IMG/VR virus record: IMGVR_UViG_3300020420_001021
Span: 1 to 38,370 of that record
Reading direction: 5' to 3' (one strand)
Source: a virus
DNA length: 38,370 nucleotides
Numbering within the stretch: the first letter of the stretch is position 1; every line of letters starts with the position of its first letter. The notes below the pieces were generated by a model. That model saw only the letters and a program-made list of their open reading frames with translations. It was not told where the DNA came from and did not search any database. The position numbers and the translations under genes are program-made. Below, piece by piece: positions 6,226 to 35,765 of the stretch.

Positions 6226-7329
6226 ATGATTAAGAAACTTCTAGCAACAGTAGCATTGACAGTTATGATGGCTACTTCAGCAGTAGCAGAAACTTTCGAA
6301 CTTCAGTTTCCGAACGGCCCAGGTAAAGGCGGTACGGCATTCTGGGGCGACACAGTAATGAAAGAGCTTAATGCCAAGCTCGAAAAATATGGGCATAATA
6401 TTATTCCACGTTACCTACCAGGACAACGTGGTAAAAAGTCTCTTAAAGACTATGGCGGTTCATATATGGAACGTCCAAAAACACTTATGATTGCACACGG
6501 TGGTAACGGTGAAGGCTTTCTTATTGAAGACGTAGGTGGTTTTGATTATCGTAACTACGATCCAGTGGTTGTAATGAATACTAATATCTGGGTTTCAATC
6601 AACGACGGTGTTGATTTTAAAAATGATGTAGTTAAATTTCCAGCAACTGGTGGTACAGGATTTGCCGCTGATATTATTGCAGTTGGTATGATGGCTTGTG
6701 GCCCTGAACTTAATGCAACAGTTGAAACGTTCTTATCATGTACTAGTGAACGTCTACGTTTCATTCCAGGATTTAATTCTGGTGGTGAAAGACGTCAAGC
6801 ATTTAGAAAAGGTCAGTTAGACTCAACACGTGATACACCACAAAGTTCAATGATGGCATATGGAGAACAGTATGCTTCAGGACAAAGTCGTGTATGGTTT
6901 GCACATGGTATTGTAGACGGTAAAGGTTCTGTCTACGGTGATCCAAATGCACCTGAAGGAGCACAATCATTCAACGAAGTTTATAAAGCTGAATATGGTG
7001 TTGAACCAAGTGGTCCTGTATATGATGCTTACAGAGCATTCCAAGGATATAGAGATGGTTTCCAGAAAACAATCTGGATTGCACCAAACTCTCCATACAA
7101 AGCAGACATCAATGCCGCAGTGGCAGAAATGTTAGCTGATCCAGAAGCAATGGCACGTCTAGATAAGAAACTAGGTGCGTTCCCTTGGTTAGCAGGTGAG
7201 GAAGTAAAAGCACATAGTGATTACTTATTCTCTCTAATTACAGAAGAACGTTTAGAAACACTTGTTATTCTTGCAAAAGAAGTATTCAAGTATAAAGATG
7301 CCTATGTAAAAACTGAGCTTCTAAAGTAA
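6226..7329 (+). CDS. tctC: TctC-like periplasmic solute-binding protein
   Basis: The N-terminus is a Sec signal peptide (two Lys, a hydrophobic core, cleavage expected after AVA near residue 21), so the protein is exported. The 367-residue product begins its mature part with a short strand and a Gly-rich PNGPGKGGTAF loop, like the ligand loop of Bug/TctC receptors of tripartite tricarboxylate transporters. Its position four bases upstream of tctA makes the receptor assignment strong. The ligand is probably a di- or tricarboxylate or similar organic acid. It has its own leader, a putative late promoter and a good AAGGAG ribosome-binding site. Confidence 0.8.
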   Translation: MIKKLLATVALTVMMATSAVAETFELQFPNGPGKGGTAFWGDTVMKELNAKLEKYGHNIIPRYLPGQRGKKSLKDYGGSYMERPKTLMIAHGGNGEGFLIEDVGGFDYRNYDPVVVMNTNIWVSINDGVDFKNDVVKFPATGGTGFAADIIAVGMMACGPELNATVETFLSCTSERLRFIPGFNSGGERRQAFRKGQLDSTRDTPQSSMMAYGEQYASGQSRVWFAHGIVDGKGSVYGDPNAPEGAQSFNEVYKAEYGVEPSGPVYDAYRAFQGYRDGFQKTIWIAPNSPYKADINAAVAEMLADPEAMARLDKKLGAFPWLAGEEVKAHSDYLFSLITEERLETLVILAKEVFKYKDAYVKTELLK

Positions 7330-7333
7330 TATA

Positions 7334-8899
7334 ATGGAGTGGATTCTTACATATCCAATCGCCGTGCAGTGGGCTATTATGCTCACTGCCGGTATCTTTT
7401 ATGGGGGACTGATCGGACTAATTCCTAGTGCAGGCCCAGGTAAAGCAATTATCATGCTCTTTGTTATTGTACAGAGTTTTGATTTTACTGGTGGTAATTA
7501 TCTATTCGTATTGTTTTCTATCGCAACAATGGTATCATGTACTATTGGTGACAGTTTCGCAAGTGTACTATTAGGTATACCTGGAGCGTCAGGAGCGGCA
7601 AGTACAATGGTAGATGGATTTCCTCTGGCAAAGCAGGGTAAGGCAAGTTATGCTCTTAGTTCTGCAATTACAGTAAGTACAGTTAATGGATTATTATTTG
7701 GTGCATTGGGTATGGCTATTATTCCTTTTTATGGACAGATAGCAGAATATGTAGGTGTACCAGAAATAGCAGGACTTATTCTTGTAGCATTCTGTTTAAT
7801 ATCAGTAGTGACTACCAAGAATATGTTTAGAAGTTTATGTGCCATAGGCGTAGGTTTATTTTTTGGATCTATTGGTTATGGTATGATGGGAGAAGTACGT
7901 AACACAGGTGGCTGGGAATATCTTGAAGATGGAGTACCAGTCGTCATTGTGGCGGCAGGGTTATTTGCTATTCCTGAATTATGGGAGGCTCTTACAACAA
8001 AATATCAAGTCGCAAAAATTTCACGTAAAGAACATAACCAACAAACTTGGGACGGCATTCTTGCTGTTTGGAAACATAAGTATCTAGCCTTTATGGGCGG
8101 ATGTATTGGTTTTGTTGTAGGTATTCTTCCTGGTACTGGTGGTGGTATTGGTGACTGGACAAGCTATAGTGCCACAGTAGCAATTAATAAAAAAGAAAAA
8201 GTAAAGTTTGGTACTGGAAATATCAAAGGTGTTATAGGACCTGAAGGTGCTAATAATGCTGGCAAGATGGGAGGCTTATTACCTACTATTATGTTTGGTA
8301 TTCCAGGCGGTAAAGTGTTTGCATTATTAATGGCACTATGGCTTTATATAGGCTTTGAAGTTGGTAATCCGTATATAATGGATGATACTCAATTTATTAA
8401 TAGTTTATTGAGTGGATATATGCTCGGAACGTTCTTTGCTGGTGTCTTAATGTTAGTGTTTGCAAGATGGTGTTGTAAGATTGTTTACATCAATCCATTG
8501 TATTGGATTCCTCCAATGTTAGCATTAACAATTTGGGCGGTTCTTGCAAGTAGATATTATTCAAGTGTATGGGAAGATTTAACAATGCTAGTGGCATTTG
8601 GTGCTATTGGTATGTTCTGTAAGTATCTTAAGTTTAGTAGACCTGCGTTACTTATGGCTTATATTTTATTCCCACGTATCGAGGCGTCTTATCTACAGTT
8701 ATCTAATGTATTCTTTTATGATGATATAAAGTCAGTATCAGCGGCATTATCTGGAGATTTTAGTTTATTAAGTCAAAACTATATCTTTAATAACCCTACA
8801 TTCATAGAACACCCAGCATTACCAATATGTATTTTAATTGGTATAGGGCTTCTGTTATACGGGTTCTTTAATAAGTCTCGAACAATGGACTATGCATAA
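7334..8899 (+). CDS. tctA: TctA-like tripartite tricarboxylate transporter permease
   Basis: The 521-residue, strongly hydrophobic protein has about 11-12 predicted membrane spans and the TctA signatures: GLIGLIPSAGPGKAI near the start, LLGIPGASGAASTMVDGFPL, a second GILPGTGGGIGDW loop, and GPEGANNAGKMG followed by FGIPGG. These two inverted Gly/Pro loops form the transport core of the large permease subunit. Length matches full-size TctA. The small subunit TctB, usually encoded between tctC and tctA, is missing; the gap is only four bases. The gene is followed by a strong terminator. It would act in the host inner membrane. Confidence 0.92.
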   Translation: MEWILTYPIAVQWAIMLTAGIFYGGLIGLIPSAGPGKAIIMLFVIVQSFDFTGGNYLFVLFSIATMVSCTIGDSFASVLLGIPGASGAASTMVDGFPLAKQGKASYALSSAITVSTVNGLLFGALGMAIIPFYGQIAEYVGVPEIAGLILVAFCLISVVTTKNMFRSLCAIGVGLFFGSIGYGMMGEVRNTGGWEYLEDGVPVVIVAAGLFAIPELWEALTTKYQVAKISRKEHNQQTWDGILAVWKHKYLAFMGGCIGFVVGILPGTGGGIGDWTSYSATVAINKKEKVKFGTGNIKGVIGPEGANNAGKMGGLLPTIMFGIPGGKVFALLMALWLYIGFEVGNPYIMDDTQFINSLLSGYMLGTFFAGVLMLVFARWCCKIVYINPLYWIPPMLALTIWAVLASRYYSSVWEDLTMLVAFGAIGMFCKYLKFSRPALLMAYILFPRIEASYLQLSNVFFYDDIKSVSAALSGDFSLLSQNYIFNNPTFIEHPALPICILIGIGLLLYGFFNKSRTMDYA

Positions 8900-15246: not shown

Positions 15247-16141
15247 AATTAATGAAGTTTTAGAAAAAGAGTCTTGGCTACGTGGTTTATCAGACTATGC
15301 AGAGTGGGCTGGTTTTTTAGATAAGTATGATATAGTATACAAAGGTATGTTTACTACTTCCAATTTTAAGATGAGGGATCTCATATTTGAACTTATGAAA
15401 GTAACTGATCGTGGAAGTCTAAAATTTGGTGATACTGAACTTAAATCATATGTTAACACGGCAATAATGAGAACGTTGAATACCTATTATCCAAAGAGAG
15501 AAATTATCTTAGCCATATTAGCAAAAATAACAGAAGATGAATTTATTAAAAGATTGAATGGAATGGTTGGATATTGTGTTGAGCAGGACATAGAAATCAA
15601 AAACTTTAATGATTTCTTTAGTAGAGGACAAGTTAAAAGTAAAAATTGGTTAGTAGATGAATTATTAGAGATTGTTGATGGCAGTGTAGGTAACGTAGTA
15701 TTCTACGGAGGTTGGTATAATCTTACCGCCCATTTCTTCTTTGAAAAGTTTAAAGCAAATACAATTTATAGTGTTGATATAGATGAATCTGTTGTTGAAC
15801 CTAGTAAAAAATTATATGAAACAGAAAAATTTATAGGAATAACTGACAGTGTTGAAAATATTATTTGGGAAAACAAAAACGTTGTTAAACCATTTAATGA
15901 CAGAATTGATGCAGTAGTAAATACATCTTGTGAACATATGGATAACACTTGGTTTGATAACTTACCAAAAGGAACCTTTGTTGTATTACAATCAAATAAT
16001 TATTTTGAGAATAGTCAACATAGTAATTGTTGCAAGACATTAGAAGAAGCTAAACAAAAATATCCAATGGAAACTATCTATTATGATGGTGAATTGGATT
16101 TACAACTTTATACAAGATATATGTTAATAGGAGTCAAGTAG
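15233..16141 (+). CDS. Methyltransferase-like protein, copy 1 of tandem pair
   Basis: A helical N-terminal half (residues 1-130) is followed by a Rossmann-like half. VGNVVFYGGWYNLTAHFF resembles motif I of class I SAM methyltransferases, with an acidic strand end in YSVDIDE. NTSCEHMDNTWFDNLPKGTFVVLQSNNYF resembles motifs IV-VI. The protein (302 residues) is clearly paralogous to the next gene, with shared blocks FFSRGQV, VVFYGGWYN and NTSCEHMD. Substrate unknown. Confidence 0.65.
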   Translation: MSRSKINEVLEKESWLRGLSDYAEWAGFLDKYDIVYKGMFTTSNFKMRDLIFELMKVTDRGSLKFGDTELKSYVNTAIMRTLNTYYPKREIILAILAKITEDEFIKRLNGMVGYCVEQDIEIKNFNDFFSRGQVKSKNWLVDELLEIVDGSVGNVVFYGGWYNLTAHFFFEKFKANTIYSVDIDESVVEPSKKLYETEKFIGITDSVENIIWENKNVVKPFNDRIDAVVNTSCEHMDNTWFDNLPKGTFVVLQSNNYFENSQHSNCCKTLEEAKQKYPMETIYYDGELDLQLYTRYMLIGVK

Positions 16142-17133
16142 TGGATTTAAAAAAGTTTCAAAAAGAATATCATTGGATGAATGGATTAAGTGAGTTCTTT
16201 GAATTTACTGGACAGAAGGATCGTTGGGATCACATACACAAAGCATTATATCATGATAATTGGTTTCGTAAACGTGACGTTATGATTGAATTATGTTCAA
16301 TGCCTAATTCAAATCCTGCTCATGTCAAAGCCTGGATGAATGCTCTACTACACGAAAAGCTAGAAGATGTTGAACTAAAGCCACAACTACTGGCAACATT
16401 ATTTCGTAAGTATATGTTAGAAGATGAATTTCTAGTCAACACTTGTAAATTTATTAACTATTGGGCAGAAGGTGATAAAGCCGCAGAAATGCCAGATATG
16501 AATGACTTTCTATCACGTGGACAAGTGAGATCCAAATTATGGATTGTAAGTGAACTAGCTAAAATTGTTGATGGTAGTATAGGTAATGTAGTATTCTATG
16601 GTGGGTGGTATAACTTTATAGCACATATGCTATTCACTCAGTTTAACGTAAATAAAATTTATTCAATTGATTTAGATGAAAAATGTGTAAATCCAAGTAA
16701 GAGATTATATCATGATCAAGTAGAACAAGGAAGATTTATTCCATTGACACGTGATGTTAATACGTTATCCTGGAAAGGGAAAGAGCTACAATATTTGGAT
16801 CATAACATTAGAACAAGATTATTAAAAGAAAAAGAGGACGAAATAAGACAACATAATCTAGATGTAAATGAGATGGCTACAGTAACTATAGACAAAATGA
16901 ATATGGTTATTAATACATCTTGTGAACATATGGATGATACTTGGTTTGAAAAATTACCAAGTGGAACGTTTGTATTACTACATCAGAATGATTATTTTGA
17001 TAATGAACAGCATATGAATTGTTGCAAGGATCTTGAAGCAGTTAAAAAGAAATATCCAATGCAAAGTATCTATTACGAAGGGGAACTCGATACGTTTCTA
17101 TATAATAGATTTATGCTGATAGGAGTTAAATAA
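16141..17133 (+). CDS. Methyltransferase-like protein, copy 2 of tandem pair
   Basis: This 330-residue paralogue of the preceding protein keeps FLSRGQVRSK, GNVVFYGGWYNFIAH, YSIDLDE and NTSCEHMDDTWFEKLPSGTF in the same order. It has about 25 extra charged residues (around RTRLLKEKEDEIRQHN) before the last block. It starts with GTG sharing one base with the upstream stop (TAGTG). The pair looks like a tandem duplication that has diverged. Catalytic competence of each copy is unknown. Confidence 0.65.
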   Translation: MDLKKFQKEYHWMNGLSEFFEFTGQKDRWDHIHKALYHDNWFRKRDVMIELCSMPNSNPAHVKAWMNALLHEKLEDVELKPQLLATLFRKYMLEDEFLVNTCKFINYWAEGDKAAEMPDMNDFLSRGQVRSKLWIVSELAKIVDGSIGNVVFYGGWYNFIAHMLFTQFNVNKIYSIDLDEKCVNPSKRLYHDQVEQGRFIPLTRDVNTLSWKGKELQYLDHNIRTRLLKEKEDEIRQHNLDVNEMATVTIDKMNMVINTSCEHMDDTWFEKLPSGTFVLLHQNDYFDNEQHMNCCKDLEAVKKKYPMQSIYYEGELDTFLYNRFMLIGVK

Positions 17134-20021: not shown

Positions 20022-20057
20022 TATACTATTAACTTATAAGTGAAGGAGACTCTAAAT

Positions 20058-20807
20058 ATGAGTACAAAAGATATCGTTCAGGATATTGTTAAGCACACAG
20101 CTGGCTTAGGCTTTATCCAAGCAGTTAAGGTAACAGGTGAATCAGGTAAGACAGAGCTAAATGCAATGGATCCTGATAGAACTGTTATTCTTAAAGCAAA
20201 ACTACATGGAGACTACCCAGAATTTACAGGTGAATTTGGACTTGGTAATATGGGATTGCTTCAGGGTATTACAAAATTAACAAATTATAATGCTGATGGT
20301 TCTACTGTTGAAGTAGTAAGTCGTGAGCGTAATGGACAAAATGCTCCAGATCATTTGTTATTTAAAGATACTGAGGGCAACAAAGATCAGTATCGTTTTA
20401 TGAGTAAAGAGATTATTGAACAAGCTCTACAAACTGTTAAATTTAAAGGTGTTGAGTGGGACGTTACAGTAGAACCTACAAAACAAAAGGTTGCAGAACT
20501 TAATGAAGTCGCGGCAATCTATGGTGCTATTGAACCTAATATGAGAATTAAAACTCAAGATGGTAACTTAAATTTAAGTGTTGGAGCAAGTGATGGTTCT
20601 TTTACAGGAAACAGAACATTCGCAAACAATGTCGATGGTGAGATTAATCATGAAATGGCTTGGCCGTTAGCTCAGGTATTAGCAATCCTAAAACTAGGAA
20701 TGAGCGGTGCCTGTGTAATGAGTATTAGTACTAAAGGTGCTTTACAAATCAGTGTTGATAGTGGACTTGCAAAATATGATTATATTCTTCCAGCACAAAC
20801 AGCCTAG
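20058..20807 (+). CDS. 45: T4-type sliding clamp (gp45-like)
   Basis: I recognise this 249-residue protein as a gp45-family processivity clamp, which encircles DNA, holds the phage polymerase and, in T4, also activates late transcription. Supporting features are the length (T4 gp45 has 228), the two-domain beta-alpha repeat pattern, the SDGSF and GLAKYDYILPA strands, and an essentially non-catalytic composition. The ATG at 20058 was chosen because the upstream in-frame GTG at 20040 overlaps the ribosome-binding site GAAGGAG. It has its own strong promoter. TATAAATA boxes elsewhere fit a gp45-dependent late system. Confidence 0.82.
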   Translation: MSTKDIVQDIVKHTAGLGFIQAVKVTGESGKTELNAMDPDRTVILKAKLHGDYPEFTGEFGLGNMGLLQGITKLTNYNADGSTVEVVSRERNGQNAPDHLLFKDTEGNKDQYRFMSKEIIEQALQTVKFKGVEWDVTVEPTKQKVAELNEVAAIYGAIEPNMRIKTQDGNLNLSVGASDGSFTGNRTFANNVDGEINHEMAWPLAQVLAILKLGMSGACVMSISTKGALQISVDSGLAKYDYILPAQTA

Positions 20808-23610: not shown

Positions 23611-24659
23611 CAGTGTATATTGTAGACATTGAAGCCGTCGACACTCGTTATACGGCACAATGGAAAAAATACTTGCCTGTTCAACTCCAACAGGCTACCG
23701 GCTTAGAAGTAAAAGTAATCAGTGGTGGAGAAACACCTCAGGCGACAACGCCTGGGGCTTTCCTAAATTTTGGAGGAACTAATGTTTATAAGTCTAATCA
23801 GCTTATGCAAATTGGTGAAATGTTTTGTAATGGAACAGTGAAAGACGGTGACTATTTTTTATATACAGATGCATGGAATCCAACAGTAATTCAATTAAAG
23901 TATATGGCACAGTTACTAGATGTTGATATTAAAGTAGGTGGTATGTGGCACGCCGGTTCATATGATCCTGCTGATTTTTTAGGCAGATTGATAGGTAATC
24001 AACACTGGGTTAGATATGCTGAAGCAAGTATGTTTAACTGTTATGATCATAACTATTTTGCAACACAATTTCATATTGATATGTTCTGTACAGTATTTGG
24101 TATTAAGCCAGATGAACAGTTTCATAAAATTGGTTGGCCAATGGAATATCTAAAAGAAGAATTGGCTCCTTATGCAAATCTTGAGAAAGAGAATATTATA
24201 TTATTCCCTCACAGAATAGCAGAAGAAAAACAACCTGAAATGTTTCGTGAGCTAGGAAAACTATTACCAGACTATGAGTTTGTTCTAGCACAGGAAAAGC
24301 AACTAAACAAACATGAATATCATACCCTATTGGGAAAGAGTAAAATTGTGTTTAGTGCTAACTTACAAGAAACATTAGGTATTAGTTGGTATGAAGCCGC
24401 ATTGGTGGGAACTATTCCAATGATACCTGAAAGACTATCTTATAAAGAGATGGCTATTCCAGAAGTATTGTATCCAACACAATGGACTCTAAATACTGAT
24501 GGATTTACAGTAAACAAAGGATTACTAGCACAAAAAATTAAAACAATGCTAGTACCTGAAAATTTAGAAATTAACAAAGATATCTGTAAAAGAGTAGTCA
24601 AAAAATGTGACGAATTCTTTAACGGAGAAAAATTATATAAAACAATTAAAGGAGCATAG
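23607..24659 (+). CDS. GT-B glycosyltransferase
   Basis: The C-terminal domain shows a GT1/GT4-type donor-binding region: IILFPHRIAEEKQPEMF, a helix-strand LPDYEFVLAQ, then LQETLGISWYEAALVGTIPMIP, matching the E-x7-E type nucleotide-sugar motif. The N-terminal domain is a second Rossmann-like fold. Length 350 residues is normal. It sits between the QueD-like and folE genes, so it may add sugar to modified DNA bases, or act on host glycans. A 9-bp hairpin lies inside the gene at 23736-23757. Confidence 0.8.
   Translation: MTVYIVDIEAVDTRYTAQWKKYLPVQLQQATGLEVKVISGGETPQATTPGAFLNFGGTNVYKSNQLMQIGEMFCNGTVKDGDYFLYTDAWNPTVIQLKYMAQLLDVDIKVGGMWHAGSYDPADFLGRLIGNQHWVRYAEASMFNCYDHNYFATQFHIDMFCTVFGIKPDEQFHKIGWPMEYLKEELAPYANLEKENIILFPHRIAEEKQPEMFRELGKLLPDYEFVLAQEKQLNKHEYHTLLGKSKIVFSANLQETLGISWYEAALVGTIPMIPERLSYKEMAIPEVLYPTQWTLNTDGFTVNKGLLAQKIKTMLVPENLEINKDICKRVVKKCDEFFNGEKLYKTIKGA
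23736..23757 (+). other. GC-rich intragenic hairpin
   Basis: CCTCAGGCG (23736-23744) pairs with CGCCTGGGG (23749-23757) across the loop ACAA, nine base pairs including one T-G wobble. It lies near codon 45-50 of the glycosyltransferase gene and is unusually G+C-rich for this sequence. No T-run follows, so it is not a classical terminator. Confidence 0.6.
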
Positions 24660-24678
24660 TATTGTGGAAAAGACCTCC
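24649..24678 (+). repeat. Shared initiation element, folE copy
   Basis: These 30 bases, covering the AAGGAG ribosome-binding site, GTG start and first five codons of folE, are identical except for one base to 32946-32975 at queE. GGAG can pair with CTCC at the 3' end of the element, and CCTCC is the anti-Shine-Dalgarno sequence itself, so pairing could hide the ribosome-binding site. Regulatory function is an inference. Confidence 0.8.
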
Positions 24679-25365
24679 AAGATCATTAAAGCAAGGCTGG
24701 AAGAAGCCGGCATTAGATACTGGGCTGGTGATAACATCAGTCAAGTTATAAAAGAAGGCGATAAAGAAGCCTTAATAGAAGAACTAACAGAAAAGTTTGA
24801 ATCAGTTTTAGACAGTTTAATTATTGATAGGAAAACAGATCCTAACAGTATGGACACAGGCAGACGCCTAGCTAAAATGTATATTAAAGAACTAATGGCA
24901 GGTAGATATAATCCTGCTCCCCCTGCAACCGCATTTCCAAATGAACCAGATCATATTACAAACGAAAAATATGATGGTATGTTGGTTGTACGTAGTGAAC
25001 TTATTAGTTTATGTTCACATCATCATCAACCAGTTAATGGTGTTGCCTATATTGGACTTATAGCCGCAGACAAATTAATTGGACTTTCTAAATATACTAG
25101 ACTCGCTCAGTGGTGTGCTAGAAGAGGCACATTGCAAGAAGAACTTGCCATGGAAATTAACAGACAGATCCGTGGTATAACAGGTTCAGATGATGTAGGA
25201 GTTTACATACAAGCAACTCATGGTTGTTGCGAGAATAGAGGTATCGGGGCTCACAGTAGTTTAACACAGACAACAGTTTTAAAAGGTTCTTTCTTTGACA
25301 ATGAACACGTTAAGAAAGAGTTTATGGATAACATTAAATTACAACAAGAATTCGCACCGAGATAG
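24664..25365 (+). CDS. folE: GTP cyclohydrolase I
   Basis: FolE converts GTP to 7,8-dihydroneopterin triphosphate, the first step of both folate and 7-deazaguanine synthesis. Zinc and catalytic residues are visible: C117 and H119-H121 in LCSHHHQPVNG, and ATHGCCENRG (Cys188/189) near the end. LIGLSKYTRLAQWCARR is also canonical. The GTG at 24664 was chosen because AAGGAG precedes it and it falls after the upstream stop; the frame is open further up to a GTG at 24607. From 24664 it has 233 residues, about the family length. The start region lies in the element shared with queE. Confidence 0.95.
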   Translation: MEKTSKIIKARLEEAGIRYWAGDNISQVIKEGDKEALIEELTEKFESVLDSLIIDRKTDPNSMDTGRRLAKMYIKELMAGRYNPAPPATAFPNEPDHITNEKYDGMLVVRSELISLCSHHHQPVNGVAYIGLIAADKLIGLSKYTRLAQWCARRGTLQEELAMEINRQIRGITGSDDVGVYIQATHGCCENRGIGAHSSLTQTTVLKGSFFDNEHVKKEFMDNIKLQQEFAPR

Positions 25366-32747: not shown

Positions 32748-32937
32748 AGTACAACCTGGACCCTTTAAAGATGCAGTTGAAGCTGAAGCAGATGGCGTAG
32801 TTAGAGCTATCTTAATTACATATAAACAGAGAGACGGCATTTTAGTAAAGGAAACTACTACAAGAAACTATTATGGTATTAAAGATTATCATGATTCTTG
32901 GAGCAGTGAGCCATTATGCAAGTTGGCAAAGGACTAA
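32737..32937 (+). CDS. Unknown small protein, 66 aa
   Basis: It overlaps the dehydrogenase gene by 11 bases. The peptide has a strand-rich centre (VVRAILITYKQ, then LVKETTTRNYYG) and ends with a Trp/Ser-rich stretch (HDSWSSEPL). No family I can name with confidence. It precedes queE. Confidence 0.65.
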   Translation: MTDKVQPGPFKDAVEAEADGVVRAILITYKQRDGILVKETTTRNYYGIKDYHDSWSSEPLCKLAKD

Positions 32938-32945
32938 ATATAATG

Positions 32946-32975
32946 AAGGAGCATAGTATTGTGAAAAAGACCTCC
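32946..32975 (+). repeat. Shared initiation element, queE copy
   Basis: Same 30-base element as at 24649-24678 with a single A/G difference, placed identically over the ribosome-binding site, the GTG and the first codons. The shared sequence covers wobble bases as well, which argues for selection on RNA or for recent copying rather than on the peptide alone. Confidence 0.8.
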
Positions 32976-33878
32976 GCAGTTAAAGAAGAGAAAAAATATT
33001 ACTTCTCTGAAATATTCCATAGTATTCAGGGTGAAGGACATTATACAGGAGTTCCAACAGCCTGGATACGTTTTTTCTTATGTAACTTGCAATGTAATGG
33101 ATTTGGGCAACTAGATCCAACTAACCCAGAGACGTATGATCTCCCGTTTGAAGATTTTGATGTTGACTCTGTAAAAAGAGTAGAAGATCTGCCTGTATGG
33201 GAAAAAGGTTGCGATAGTTCCTATACATGGGCTAAAAAGTTTAAAGGATTAATGGGGCAAGAAACGCCTACAGTATTGGCAAATAAAATTGTTGATATAA
33301 TGAAGAATGATAGTAACCCAGATGGATTATTCCTACACCCTGTTACAGGACAAAGGCAACATTTATGTATTACAGGTGGTGAGCCATTAATGGCAACAGG
33401 ACAATTGGCAACTATAGGAATATATGAAGAGCTTGAAAGACAAAACAATCTTCCAAGTTCAATGACATTTGAAACTAACGGAACACAAAAGTTAAGAGAT
33501 CCATTTATAGAATGGGTAAACAGAATTGATACAGAAATATTTTTTAGTGTAAGCCCTAAACTATTTACAGTATCAGGAGAAAAGCCAGAAAAGGCAATTA
33601 AGCCTGAAGTGGTTGCAGAATATAGAAAATTATCTAGCAAAGGACAATTAAAGTTTGTAGTAGGTCCTCAAGATAGAGAATGGGACGAAATGGAATCTGT
33701 TATTAAACAGTTTAAAGAAGCAGGTGTTGATTGGCCCATATGGGTTATGCCAACAGGTGCTAGAGAAGAAGAACAAACGGCAGGAGCAGGAAAGGTTGCT
33801 GAAAAGGCATTTAAACGTGGATATAATGTTGCGGCAAGAGTTCATGTTTATCTTTTTGGTAATGCAATAGGTACATAA
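32961..33878 (+). CDS. queE: 7-carboxy-7-deazaguanine synthase, radical SAM QueE
   Basis: The opening FSEIFHSIQGEGHYTGVPTAWIRFFLCN and later CITGGEPLM, TFETNGT, and SVSPKL are the core of QueE, which converts 6-carboxy-tetrahydropterin to 7-carboxy-7-deazaguanine. The cluster cysteines are unusual: C41 and C45 are followed by C84, a CX3CX38C arrangement instead of CX3CX2C, with the insertion placed between the second and third Cys. GTG at 32961 has AAGGAG in front; an in-frame ATG at 32943 is a possible longer start. Length is 305 residues, longer than the usual 220 because of inserts. Confidence 0.88.
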   Translation: MKKTSAVKEEKKYYFSEIFHSIQGEGHYTGVPTAWIRFFLCNLQCNGFGQLDPTNPETYDLPFEDFDVDSVKRVEDLPVWEKGCDSSYTWAKKFKGLMGQETPTVLANKIVDIMKNDSNPDGLFLHPVTGQRQHLCITGGEPLMATGQLATIGIYEELERQNNLPSSMTFETNGTQKLRDPFIEWVNRIDTEIFFSVSPKLFTVSGEKPEKAIKPEVVAEYRKLSSKGQLKFVVGPQDREWDEMESVIKQFKEAGVDWPIWVMPTGAREEEQTAGAGKVAEKAFKRGYNVAARVHVYLFGNAIGT

Positions 33879-34051: not shown

Positions 34052-35341
34052 GTGGAAGAGAAGAAAGATTACAAGCCAGTAAAAACAAGTAAAGTAGGTG
34101 GTTCGCCATTTACAGGAGTATTAGGTTGGATTGATGATAGACTACCTTTATTCCGTATGTTCAAATATGAATATTTAGATTTTCAAGTTCCAAGAAGTTT
34201 AAATTACTTCTGGAGTTTTGGTGGCATTCTGATGTTTTGTCTTTTAGGACTAATTATAACAGGATTAACTTTGGGTATGCATTATAAACCATCAGCAGAT
34301 GATGCCTTTGTAAGTGTTGAACATATAATGAGAGATGTCAACTATGGTTGGCTACTTCGCTATATGCATATGAACCTTGCATCATTCTTCTTTATAGCAG
34401 TTTATTTACATATATTCAGAGCCATGTATTTTGGATCCTACAAAGATCCGAGACAAATTATGTGGCTAATAGGTATTATAATATTTTTCTTAATGGTAGC
34501 AACCGCATTTTTAGGATATACATTGCCTTGGGGGCAGATGAGTTTATGGGGTGCAACAGTTATTACAAGTTTATTCAGTGCAATACCTGTAGTAGGTGAA
34601 GGAATAGTACAATGGCTATGGGGAGGATACTCAGTTGATGATCCTACTATTAATAGATTCTATGTATTACACTGGCTATTGGCATTTGTGATATTAGGCA
34701 TAGTAATACTTCATGTAATTGCATTACATATTGTAGGCTCTAATAATCCATCAGGTATTGAACCAAAGGACACCAGAGATACAGTTACATTTCATCCATA
34801 TACAACGGCAAAAGATATGTATATGATGATATTATTCTTTACAATATTTGCCGCCTTTGTATTTTTTGTACCAAATGTATTAGGGCATCCAGACAATTAT
34901 ATTCCTGCTAATCCATTAGTAACACCTGCACACATTGTACCTGAATGGTATTTCCTACCCTTCTATGCAATTCTAAGAGCGATACCAGACAAGCTAGGTG
35001 GTGTTATTGCTATGGTTAGTGCAATAGGAATACTTGCTCTACTTCCTTGGTTGGATAGAAGTAAAATAAGATCCTGTATATTTAGGCCAATGCATAGACA
35101 GTGGTTCATAATTTTTGTATTAAACTTTATGATGCTGACATATGTTGGTGCAATGCCAGCTGAAGGATATTATATATTACTTGGAAGAATTGGAACGGCA
35201 TATTGGTTCTTATATTTTCTAGTTATTGTTCCATTGAATAGTATATTAGAAAAACCCAAACCTATGCCAAATTCTATTCACGAATATTTAGAATGGAAAG
35301 AACAAGGTAAAATTAAAAATATGTTTTCATGGATGAGATAA
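34052..35341 (+). CDS. petB: Cytochrome b of the bc1 complex, full length
   Basis: The 429-residue membrane protein has eight or so spans and the key cytochrome b features: heme ligands H106/H120 and H207/H221 (both 14 apart, as in bc1 complexes), [20 protein letters not shown] for the Qo pocket, and PEWY (residues 297-300) before [25 protein letters not shown] and VGAMPAEG match alphaproteobacterial cytochrome b. No Rieske or cytochrome c1 gene is in the window, so it would have to join host subunits. Start is a GTG with a weak AGAAAG site. All ligands are present, so it is probably functional. Confidence 0.97.
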
Positions 35342-35342
35342 A

Positions 35343-35573
35343 ATGACAAAGCCAAATACTTCATTTAAGTTATCGATAAGAGATATAGAAATAATAGAAG
35401 AAGCTCTAAGAGCAAAAGCAGGTAGGCGAGGTTTAGCTATTGCTAACGGAGAAACATCTCCTCAGTTAAAAGCCGAGATGATTGAACTACAAAACGTTCT
35501 TGGAAGAATACATGAACAGAAAAACTTTTATGCCAAATTCAAAGATGGCAAACAACCATATGTGAGTGGATGA
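35343..35573 (+). CDS. Unknown protein, 76 aa
   Basis: Starts one base after the cytochrome b stop, in the same orientation. Helix-rich, basic, with the segment FKLSIRDIEIIEEALRAKAG near the start and a helical middle. No transport signal or known domain. Possibly a phage protein conserved in T4-like viruses, but this is from memory only. Confidence 0.65.
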   Translation: MTKPNTSFKLSIRDIEIIEEALRAKAGRRGLAIANGETSPQLKAEMIELQNVLGRIHEQKNFYAKFKDGKQPYVSG

Positions 35574-35579
35574 GATAAA

Positions 35580-35765
35580 ATGACAGAAGAAGATACAATT
35601 AAACTATTTAAAGAGATTAAGAAAATTAATCTTAAGTTAAATCAAATAGAACAAGAACAGAAATTACTTAACGAGAAGTTAGGTAGGCATATCGAGTTTA
35701 TCGATAAAACGTATGAAGGATTAAAGAATCCAATAGAGACGGCTAGAAGATTTCTGGGAAGATAG
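35580..35765 (+). CDS. Coiled-coil protein, 61 aa
   Basis: Mostly one helix with heptad hydrophobics ([18 protein letters not shown]), followed by a short tail with FLGR. Similar in build to the 51-aa coiled-coil at 33880, possibly related. Function unknown. Confidence 0.6.

Follow-up and report, generated by a model that had tools for sequence, protein, structure and literature searches.

The window and its shared translation starts

The stretch of DNA considered here, hereafter the window, is an entire IMG/VR record of 38,370 bases. It contains folE, for a GTP cyclohydrolase I, and queE, for a 7-carboxy-7-deazaguanine synthase-like radical SAM protein (Table 1). The start assigned to queE rests on its Shine-Dalgarno (SD) sequence and on the parallel with folE, since two in-frame ATGs, at 32916 and 32943, lie upstream of the GTG at 32961. 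In most close QueE relatives homology begins at query residue 9 or 10, the first eight or so residues of the window protein being missing there, and many of these relatives begin at MEEKKYY or a similar sequence; the window QueE thus has an extra N-terminus of about eight residues. BLASTN of folE or queE against cultured phages gives no match. The cultured phages whose FolE is closest (Sinorhizobium phage Phosso, Rhizobium phage RHph_I1_18, Vibrio phage 2.275.O and phage NCTB) have, on reading, neither of the two leader types described below, and a search of these four with the covariance model R1 finds nothing.

The window also encodes a sliding-clamp-like protein (20040-20807) that is closest to the clamps of jumbo phages (Phosso, PA5oct), which suggests that the window is probably a piece of a larger phage. 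A complete bc1/b6f-type cytochrome b at 34052-35341 (PF00033, E 3e-70; PF00032) is unusual viral cargo. The region 6226-8899 resembles, by eye, a tricarboxylate transporter pair, with a TctC-like binding protein (6226-7329) and a TctA-like membrane protein (7334-8899), and this pair has no PHROG match. Another duplicated translation start, TGGATGAGATAAAATGACA, is found at 35330-35359 and 35567-35596, before two neighbouring small ORFs, and a 242-base direct repeat, 75% identical, occupies the ends of two adjacent genes (15899-16140 and 16891-17132).

The translation starts of folE and queE are nearly the same. The 30-mers AAGGAGCATAGTATTGTGGAAAAGACCTCC at folE and AAGGAGCATAGTATTGTGAAAAAGACCTCC at queE are identical at 29 of 30 positions, differ by one base and lie 8,297 bases apart; no third copy occurs at three or fewer mismatches anywhere in the window, and dinucleotide shuffles yield 0 matches. 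A sequence-only reading had singled out this pair and had placed the ribosome-binding site, the GTG and the first codons within it, and both points are confirmed: each 30-mer spans the SD, the GTG start and codons 2-5, and encodes an M-x-K-T-S N-terminus. Upstream of the 30-mers the likeness drops to 85% over 41 bases, and downstream it ends at CTCC. Since the phage is probably incomplete, further copies may exist outside the window.

Table 1. Positions of the genes and of the parts of the start-site element in the window
Feature	Position	Strand	Basis
folE, GTP cyclohydrolase I, GTG start, 233 aa	24664..25365	+	PF01227 E=6.5e-35, phrog_2197
queE, 7-carboxy-7-deazaguanine synthase-like radical SAM protein, GTG start, 305 aa	32961..33878	+	phrog_2076 E=2.6e-54
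Type-A RNA element around the folE start, comprising SD, spacer, GTG and codons 2-5	24649..24678	+	exact match; covariance model R1 24643-24681, E 2.1e-10 (this copy is itself among the sequences that built R1)
Second element copy, at queE, one base different	32946..32975	+	exact match; R1 32940-32978, E 4.8e-10
GGAG, SD core and 5' arm of the putative helix, folE	24651..24654	+	partner 24675-24678; GGAA/UUCC, GGAG/CUCC, GGAU/AUCC across phages
CTCC, helix 3' arm within folE codons 4-5 (ACC TCC)	24675..24678	+	arm variants across phages; codon test
CATA, putative 4-nt bulge, folE	24655..24658	+	alignments A1/A3: invariant C; mostly CWWA, but CACA in L313
GT, putative inner pairs with AC 24673-24674, folE	24659..24660	+	invariant, so GT/AC gives no covariation test
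GGAG, SD core and 5' arm, queE copy	32948..32951	+	sequence
CTCC, 3' arm in queE codons 4-5	32972..32975	+	sequence

The element at folE in other phages

Relatives were gathered by FolE protein searches and by DNA pattern scans of IMG/VR contigs, which are redundant fragments. The possibility, raised in the sequence-only reading, that related phages might lack the element altogether is contradicted: about 70 further viral contigs, from uncultured aquatic phages, carry it where folE begins. The first pattern scan returned 73 contigs, with the match at folE in all 73, and apart from the queE copy the true matches of a looser scan likewise lie at folE. The consensus of this element, type A, is AAGGAAC[A/U]UAGU, 0-4 bases and AUG, with ACUUCC following as codons 4-5, or as codons 3-4 in the MKTS forms. 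Removal of near-copies leaves 24 distinct core sequences, and the element occurs in both of the deeply divergent FolE subfamilies (the CSHHH and CAHHF types). When 50 whole records of up to 342 kb were searched with R1, each of the 49 others gave one strong match and the window alone gave two; as for the weak second matches, the two best (G042, G081) prove on reading not to be elements, and the rest have E above 0.04. An exact scan of 84,980 bacterial and archaeal genomes with one type-A pattern finds none.

Type A displays features of a conserved cis-regulatory RNA, in that its position is fixed, compensatory changes occur (in one pair only) and the constraint acts at the nucleotide level. 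On these comparative grounds it is a conserved RNA structure at the start of folE in many related phages. Part of the element is coding sequence, and searches confined to intergenic regions would miss that part. Searches of the open-access literature find no description of type A, nor of the second leader type.

Pairing, codon use and folding

The earlier proposal that the GGAG pairs with a CCTCC downstream gains comparative backing. The GGAG can pair with CTCC, and the arms, which are GGAG/CUCC in the window, are GGAA/UUCC in most phages and GGAU/AUCC in L550. This last variant was recovered in a scan with both inner positions of each arm left free, which returned AA/TT at 50 sites, AG/CT at two (both window copies) and AT/AT at one (L550 folE). 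The arms are complementary at 53/53 element sites, both window copies counted; four chance matches elsewhere in the same scan are non-complementary. In alignment A3 the varying pair is AU in 22 sequences, GC in two and UA in one, with no broken pair, and the other five pairs of the helix never vary. On the FolE tree the window lies beside L031 and L550 beside L554, both neighbours having A-U; because the G-C and U-A phages are thus apart, each next to A-U relatives, the two compensatory changes are independent. The covariation that had been sought in related phages is present as one pair with three Watson-Crick types, and is limited to that pair, to two independent events and the copy. In both cases the change on the coding side is synonymous, from Thr ACU to ACC (window) or ACA (L550). 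The distance between the arms varies among phages and the arms are constant. For the inside of the hairpin, the GU/AC pairs with the bulge are one option among several. A second helix involving the CAU and the start codon is mostly possible but one pair fails in 8 of 25 sequences, and it was not adopted.

The codons that form the 3' arm are themselves constrained. ACT TCC is found in 51/51 element-bearing folE genes, with ACC TCC in the window in addition, in a sample whose genes share descent and so are not independent draws. Since many of the loci were fetched by a pattern that includes ACTTCC, the unbiased figure is taken to be that of folE genes retrieved by protein, in which all 13 of the 13 that have the 5' half also carry the 3' half. 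In the remainder of the same genes TCC accounts for 6 of 642 Ser codons (0.9%), and FolE genes that start MKTSE and have no element use ACATCA or ACATCG. The compensatory synonymous changes and the fixed, rare ACU-UCC together argue for a conserved RNA structure rather than a peptide effect or a copying artefact.

At 37 C the hairpin is predicted to have an energy of -0.9 to -4.9 kcal/mol, with a pairing probability of 0.47-0.97 for the SD; at 4 C the predicted range is -5.6 to -12.4 kcal/mol. Single-sequence folding shows no significant stability against shuffles, with free-energy z-scores near zero or positive, and so the case rests on comparison.

queE and the other pathway genes

A queE gene is present in 43 of the 49 records searched, window included. 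Among 26 other queE starts read in loci of element-bearing phages none has the element, and neither do the close relatives of the window queE; the queE copy is, across these records, private to the window phage, type A being otherwise a folE element. Three of the queE matches contain one internal in-frame TAA (G007:C1:7358-8266, G036:C1:4117-4992 and G049:C1:52728-53597), for which upstream over-extension or a disrupted gene is possible.

In 12 of 42 records, by a count of distances, queE lies directly behind folE, and in the adjacent cases read (e.g. L480, L481) the folE stop and queE start overlap as ATGA or TAATG, so that one element could act on both genes by coupling. In 25 of the 42, a distance of 2.7-12.7 kb separates queE from the folE element, and there, where read, a single element stands at folE and none at queE; common control of the two genes is thus not universal.

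The sequence-only reading had put forward a common switch for 7-deazaguanine precursor synthesis and had suggested a search at queC and queD. QueD-like PTPS genes occur in 9 of the 49 element-bearing records and carry no copy of the element, QueC is not detected in any of the 49, and no TGT-type protein is found in 41 records. Given this, and the private nature of the queE copy, the element does not mark 7-deazaguanine genes in general. Of the earlier reading, a conserved RNA structure where folE begins is supported, and the queE copy fits a common switch for the pathway; the switch is not supported in its general form, the queE copy being private to this phage. As queE is not a folate gene, the copy nevertheless points to the 7-deazaguanine branch. 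The arrival of a copy as a unit on another gene of the pathway would offer a rare view of how a regulatory RNA module spreads.

A second leader at folE

A different leader, type B, is found in 104 of 234 distinct folE leaders from related phages (about 44% of the sample), for example at L066:9960-9990, L082:5945-5975 and in L339. It is a small RNA resembling an H-type pseudoknot and comprises a hairpin with the loop AUCC[U/A/C]C, followed by AAC(A)UCGGAG. All four pairs of its P1 covary, with 73 double-change cells, a figure reached in 0 of 500 shuffles, and the UCC/GGA pairs of its putative pseudoknot are invariant. There is at most one strong match per genome.

The two types are apparently mutually exclusive in the records compared. 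No convincing type-B match exists in 34 type-A records, and type A is absent from folE in 41 records of the type-B set, where the lone weak type-A match (G081) is about 283 kb from the folE leader and has no ACUUCC. The A and B labels switch several times on the FolE tree, and since the leader types exchange in this way two unrelated RNAs seem to control folE. Type B has no credible match in Rfam at gathering or permissive thresholds, and an exact scan of bacterial and archaeal genomes with one type-B pattern finds none. It resembles the preQ1-I riboswitches in having a loop that ends [U/A/C]C before the 3' strand of P1 and a UCC/GGA pairing with the SD, and its topology is like that of preQ1-I type III (PMC11625349, PMC10622847). 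However, the type-B loop is only 6 nt, and the Rfam searches do not recover it.

Comparison of type A with known systems

The operator of RNA phage coat proteins is a bulged hairpin that includes the SD and the start codon. Type A, as predicted, would have the same hairpin design, although the sequence and the gene differ. As with the operators of T4 RegA, type A is an element at the start site of phage mRNAs, and the RegA operators block initiation. RegA sites have neither structure nor clear conservation and are spread over about 30 mRNAs (PMC3014915), whereas type A is structured, has a covarying pair and occurs at one site per genome, nearly always at one gene. It does not fit an operator of the RegA type, an A/U-rich unstructured site shared by many mRNAs.

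Type A has no credible match in Rfam at gathering or permissive thresholds, up to E 2. The THF-II riboswitch (folE motif) is associated with folE, holds the ribosome-binding site in a helix and is proposed to switch off translation of the pathway's first enzyme (PMC6800512). Type A has in common with it the location at folE (all true type-A matches, save the queE copy) and a ribosome-binding site that is predicted to lie in a helix. THF-II, which binds THF or reduced pterins, has the ribosome-binding site in the right shoulder of P1, and a P2 stem, upstream of the AUG, whereas in type A the SD forms the 5' arm, the start codon lies between the arms and the 3' arm is in the coding region; type A departs from the THF-II consensus. 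The preQ1-I riboswitches (types I-III) are among the smallest aptamers and hide the SD of 7-deazaguanine genes (PMC11625349, PMC10622847). Type A, located at folE and, in the window, at queE, may likewise control genes of that pathway. Yet preQ1-I is an H-type pseudoknot in which a P1 hairpin stands upstream and a C reads preQ1, and type A, which has no such hairpin, was not assigned to this class.

Proposed mechanism and alternative explanations

Type A probably acts as a cis-acting RNA that controls the initiation of folE translation, which is the best explanation of the comparative data. The partner of the 5' arm GGAR, which is the SD core, would be YUCC within codons 4-5, and the helix would probably also include the inner GU/AC pairs and the CWWA bulge. 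The resulting hairpin would enclose the start codon in its loop, and folding would hide the SD and the start together. As the hairpin alone is weak, we infer a signal in trans that stabilises it. This would most likely be an intermediate or a product of 7-deazaguanine synthesis, and less likely a protein; a feedback off-switch of this kind is a serious but tentative candidate, slightly more apt to be wrong than right. In the window phage, copying of the element from folE to queE would have added about eight codons and placed a second pathway enzyme under the same control, which several relatives could reach through a queE directly behind folE. A more specific version takes type A as a metabolite-sensing RNA of about 30 nt answering a 7-deazaguanine precursor, forming with the unrelated type B two interchangeable phage solutions to folE feedback, and moved here to a second pathway gene; as a whole it is possible but doubtful.

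Phage coat proteins and T4 translational repressors block the ribosome by gripping RNA at the start site, and a phage or host RNA-binding protein, possibly FolE itself, might likewise hold the bulged hairpin. A small hairpin around the start codon, present once per genome and with an invariant C in its putative bulge, would suit such a protein, T4-like phages employ translational repressors (PMC3014915), and the presence of both leader types on folE would fit autogenous control. Against it, the window carries the element on queE too, two unrelated RNA folds at one gene would demand two binding specificities, and no candidate repressor was identified; we consider a protein operator unlikely, if still a real contender. 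It is rather improbable that the hairpin is a ligand-free attenuator or RNA thermometer, setting a low or temperature-dependent rate of translation. The predicted gain in stability from 37 C to 4 C is as a thermometer would have it, but the SD is predicted to be mostly paired at all temperatures in most sequences, and CWWAGU is kept beyond the needs of the outer pairing in two FolE subfamilies, which suggests recognition.

An effect at the level of DNA, or an artefact, is very improbable. The arms form an inverted repeat that a DNA-binding dimer could use as an operator or promoter element, yet the spacing of their centre differs among phages, which is unlikely for a dimer site, and their register with the SD and start codon is constant. 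Only one record shows the queE copy, which would allow the assembly or copying artefact that the sequence-only reading had named as a danger; this was not upheld, since the window copies differ by one base, their flanks differ and the copied part begins and ends where the folE element of other phages does. Least credible of all is that the shared DNA merely reflects a conserved K-T-S peptide, for although every element-bearing FolE has TS after K, N or Q, ACT TCC with its rare TCC is fixed where the same MKTSE elsewhere uses ACATCN, the 5' half lies upstream of the start and is conserved jointly with the 3' half, and the Thr codon turns to ACC or ACA only with the matching change upstream. The KTS peptide that had been remarked on is indeed present in both proteins, as a by-product of the RNA element and not its cause.

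The 7-deazaguanine route is described in one source (PMC6884629) as protecting the DNA of some phages from restriction. A start-site RNA that probably governs folE translation, and that in the window phage may extend the same control to queE, would provide a concrete and testable RNA control point for 7-deazaguanine precursor synthesis in phages.
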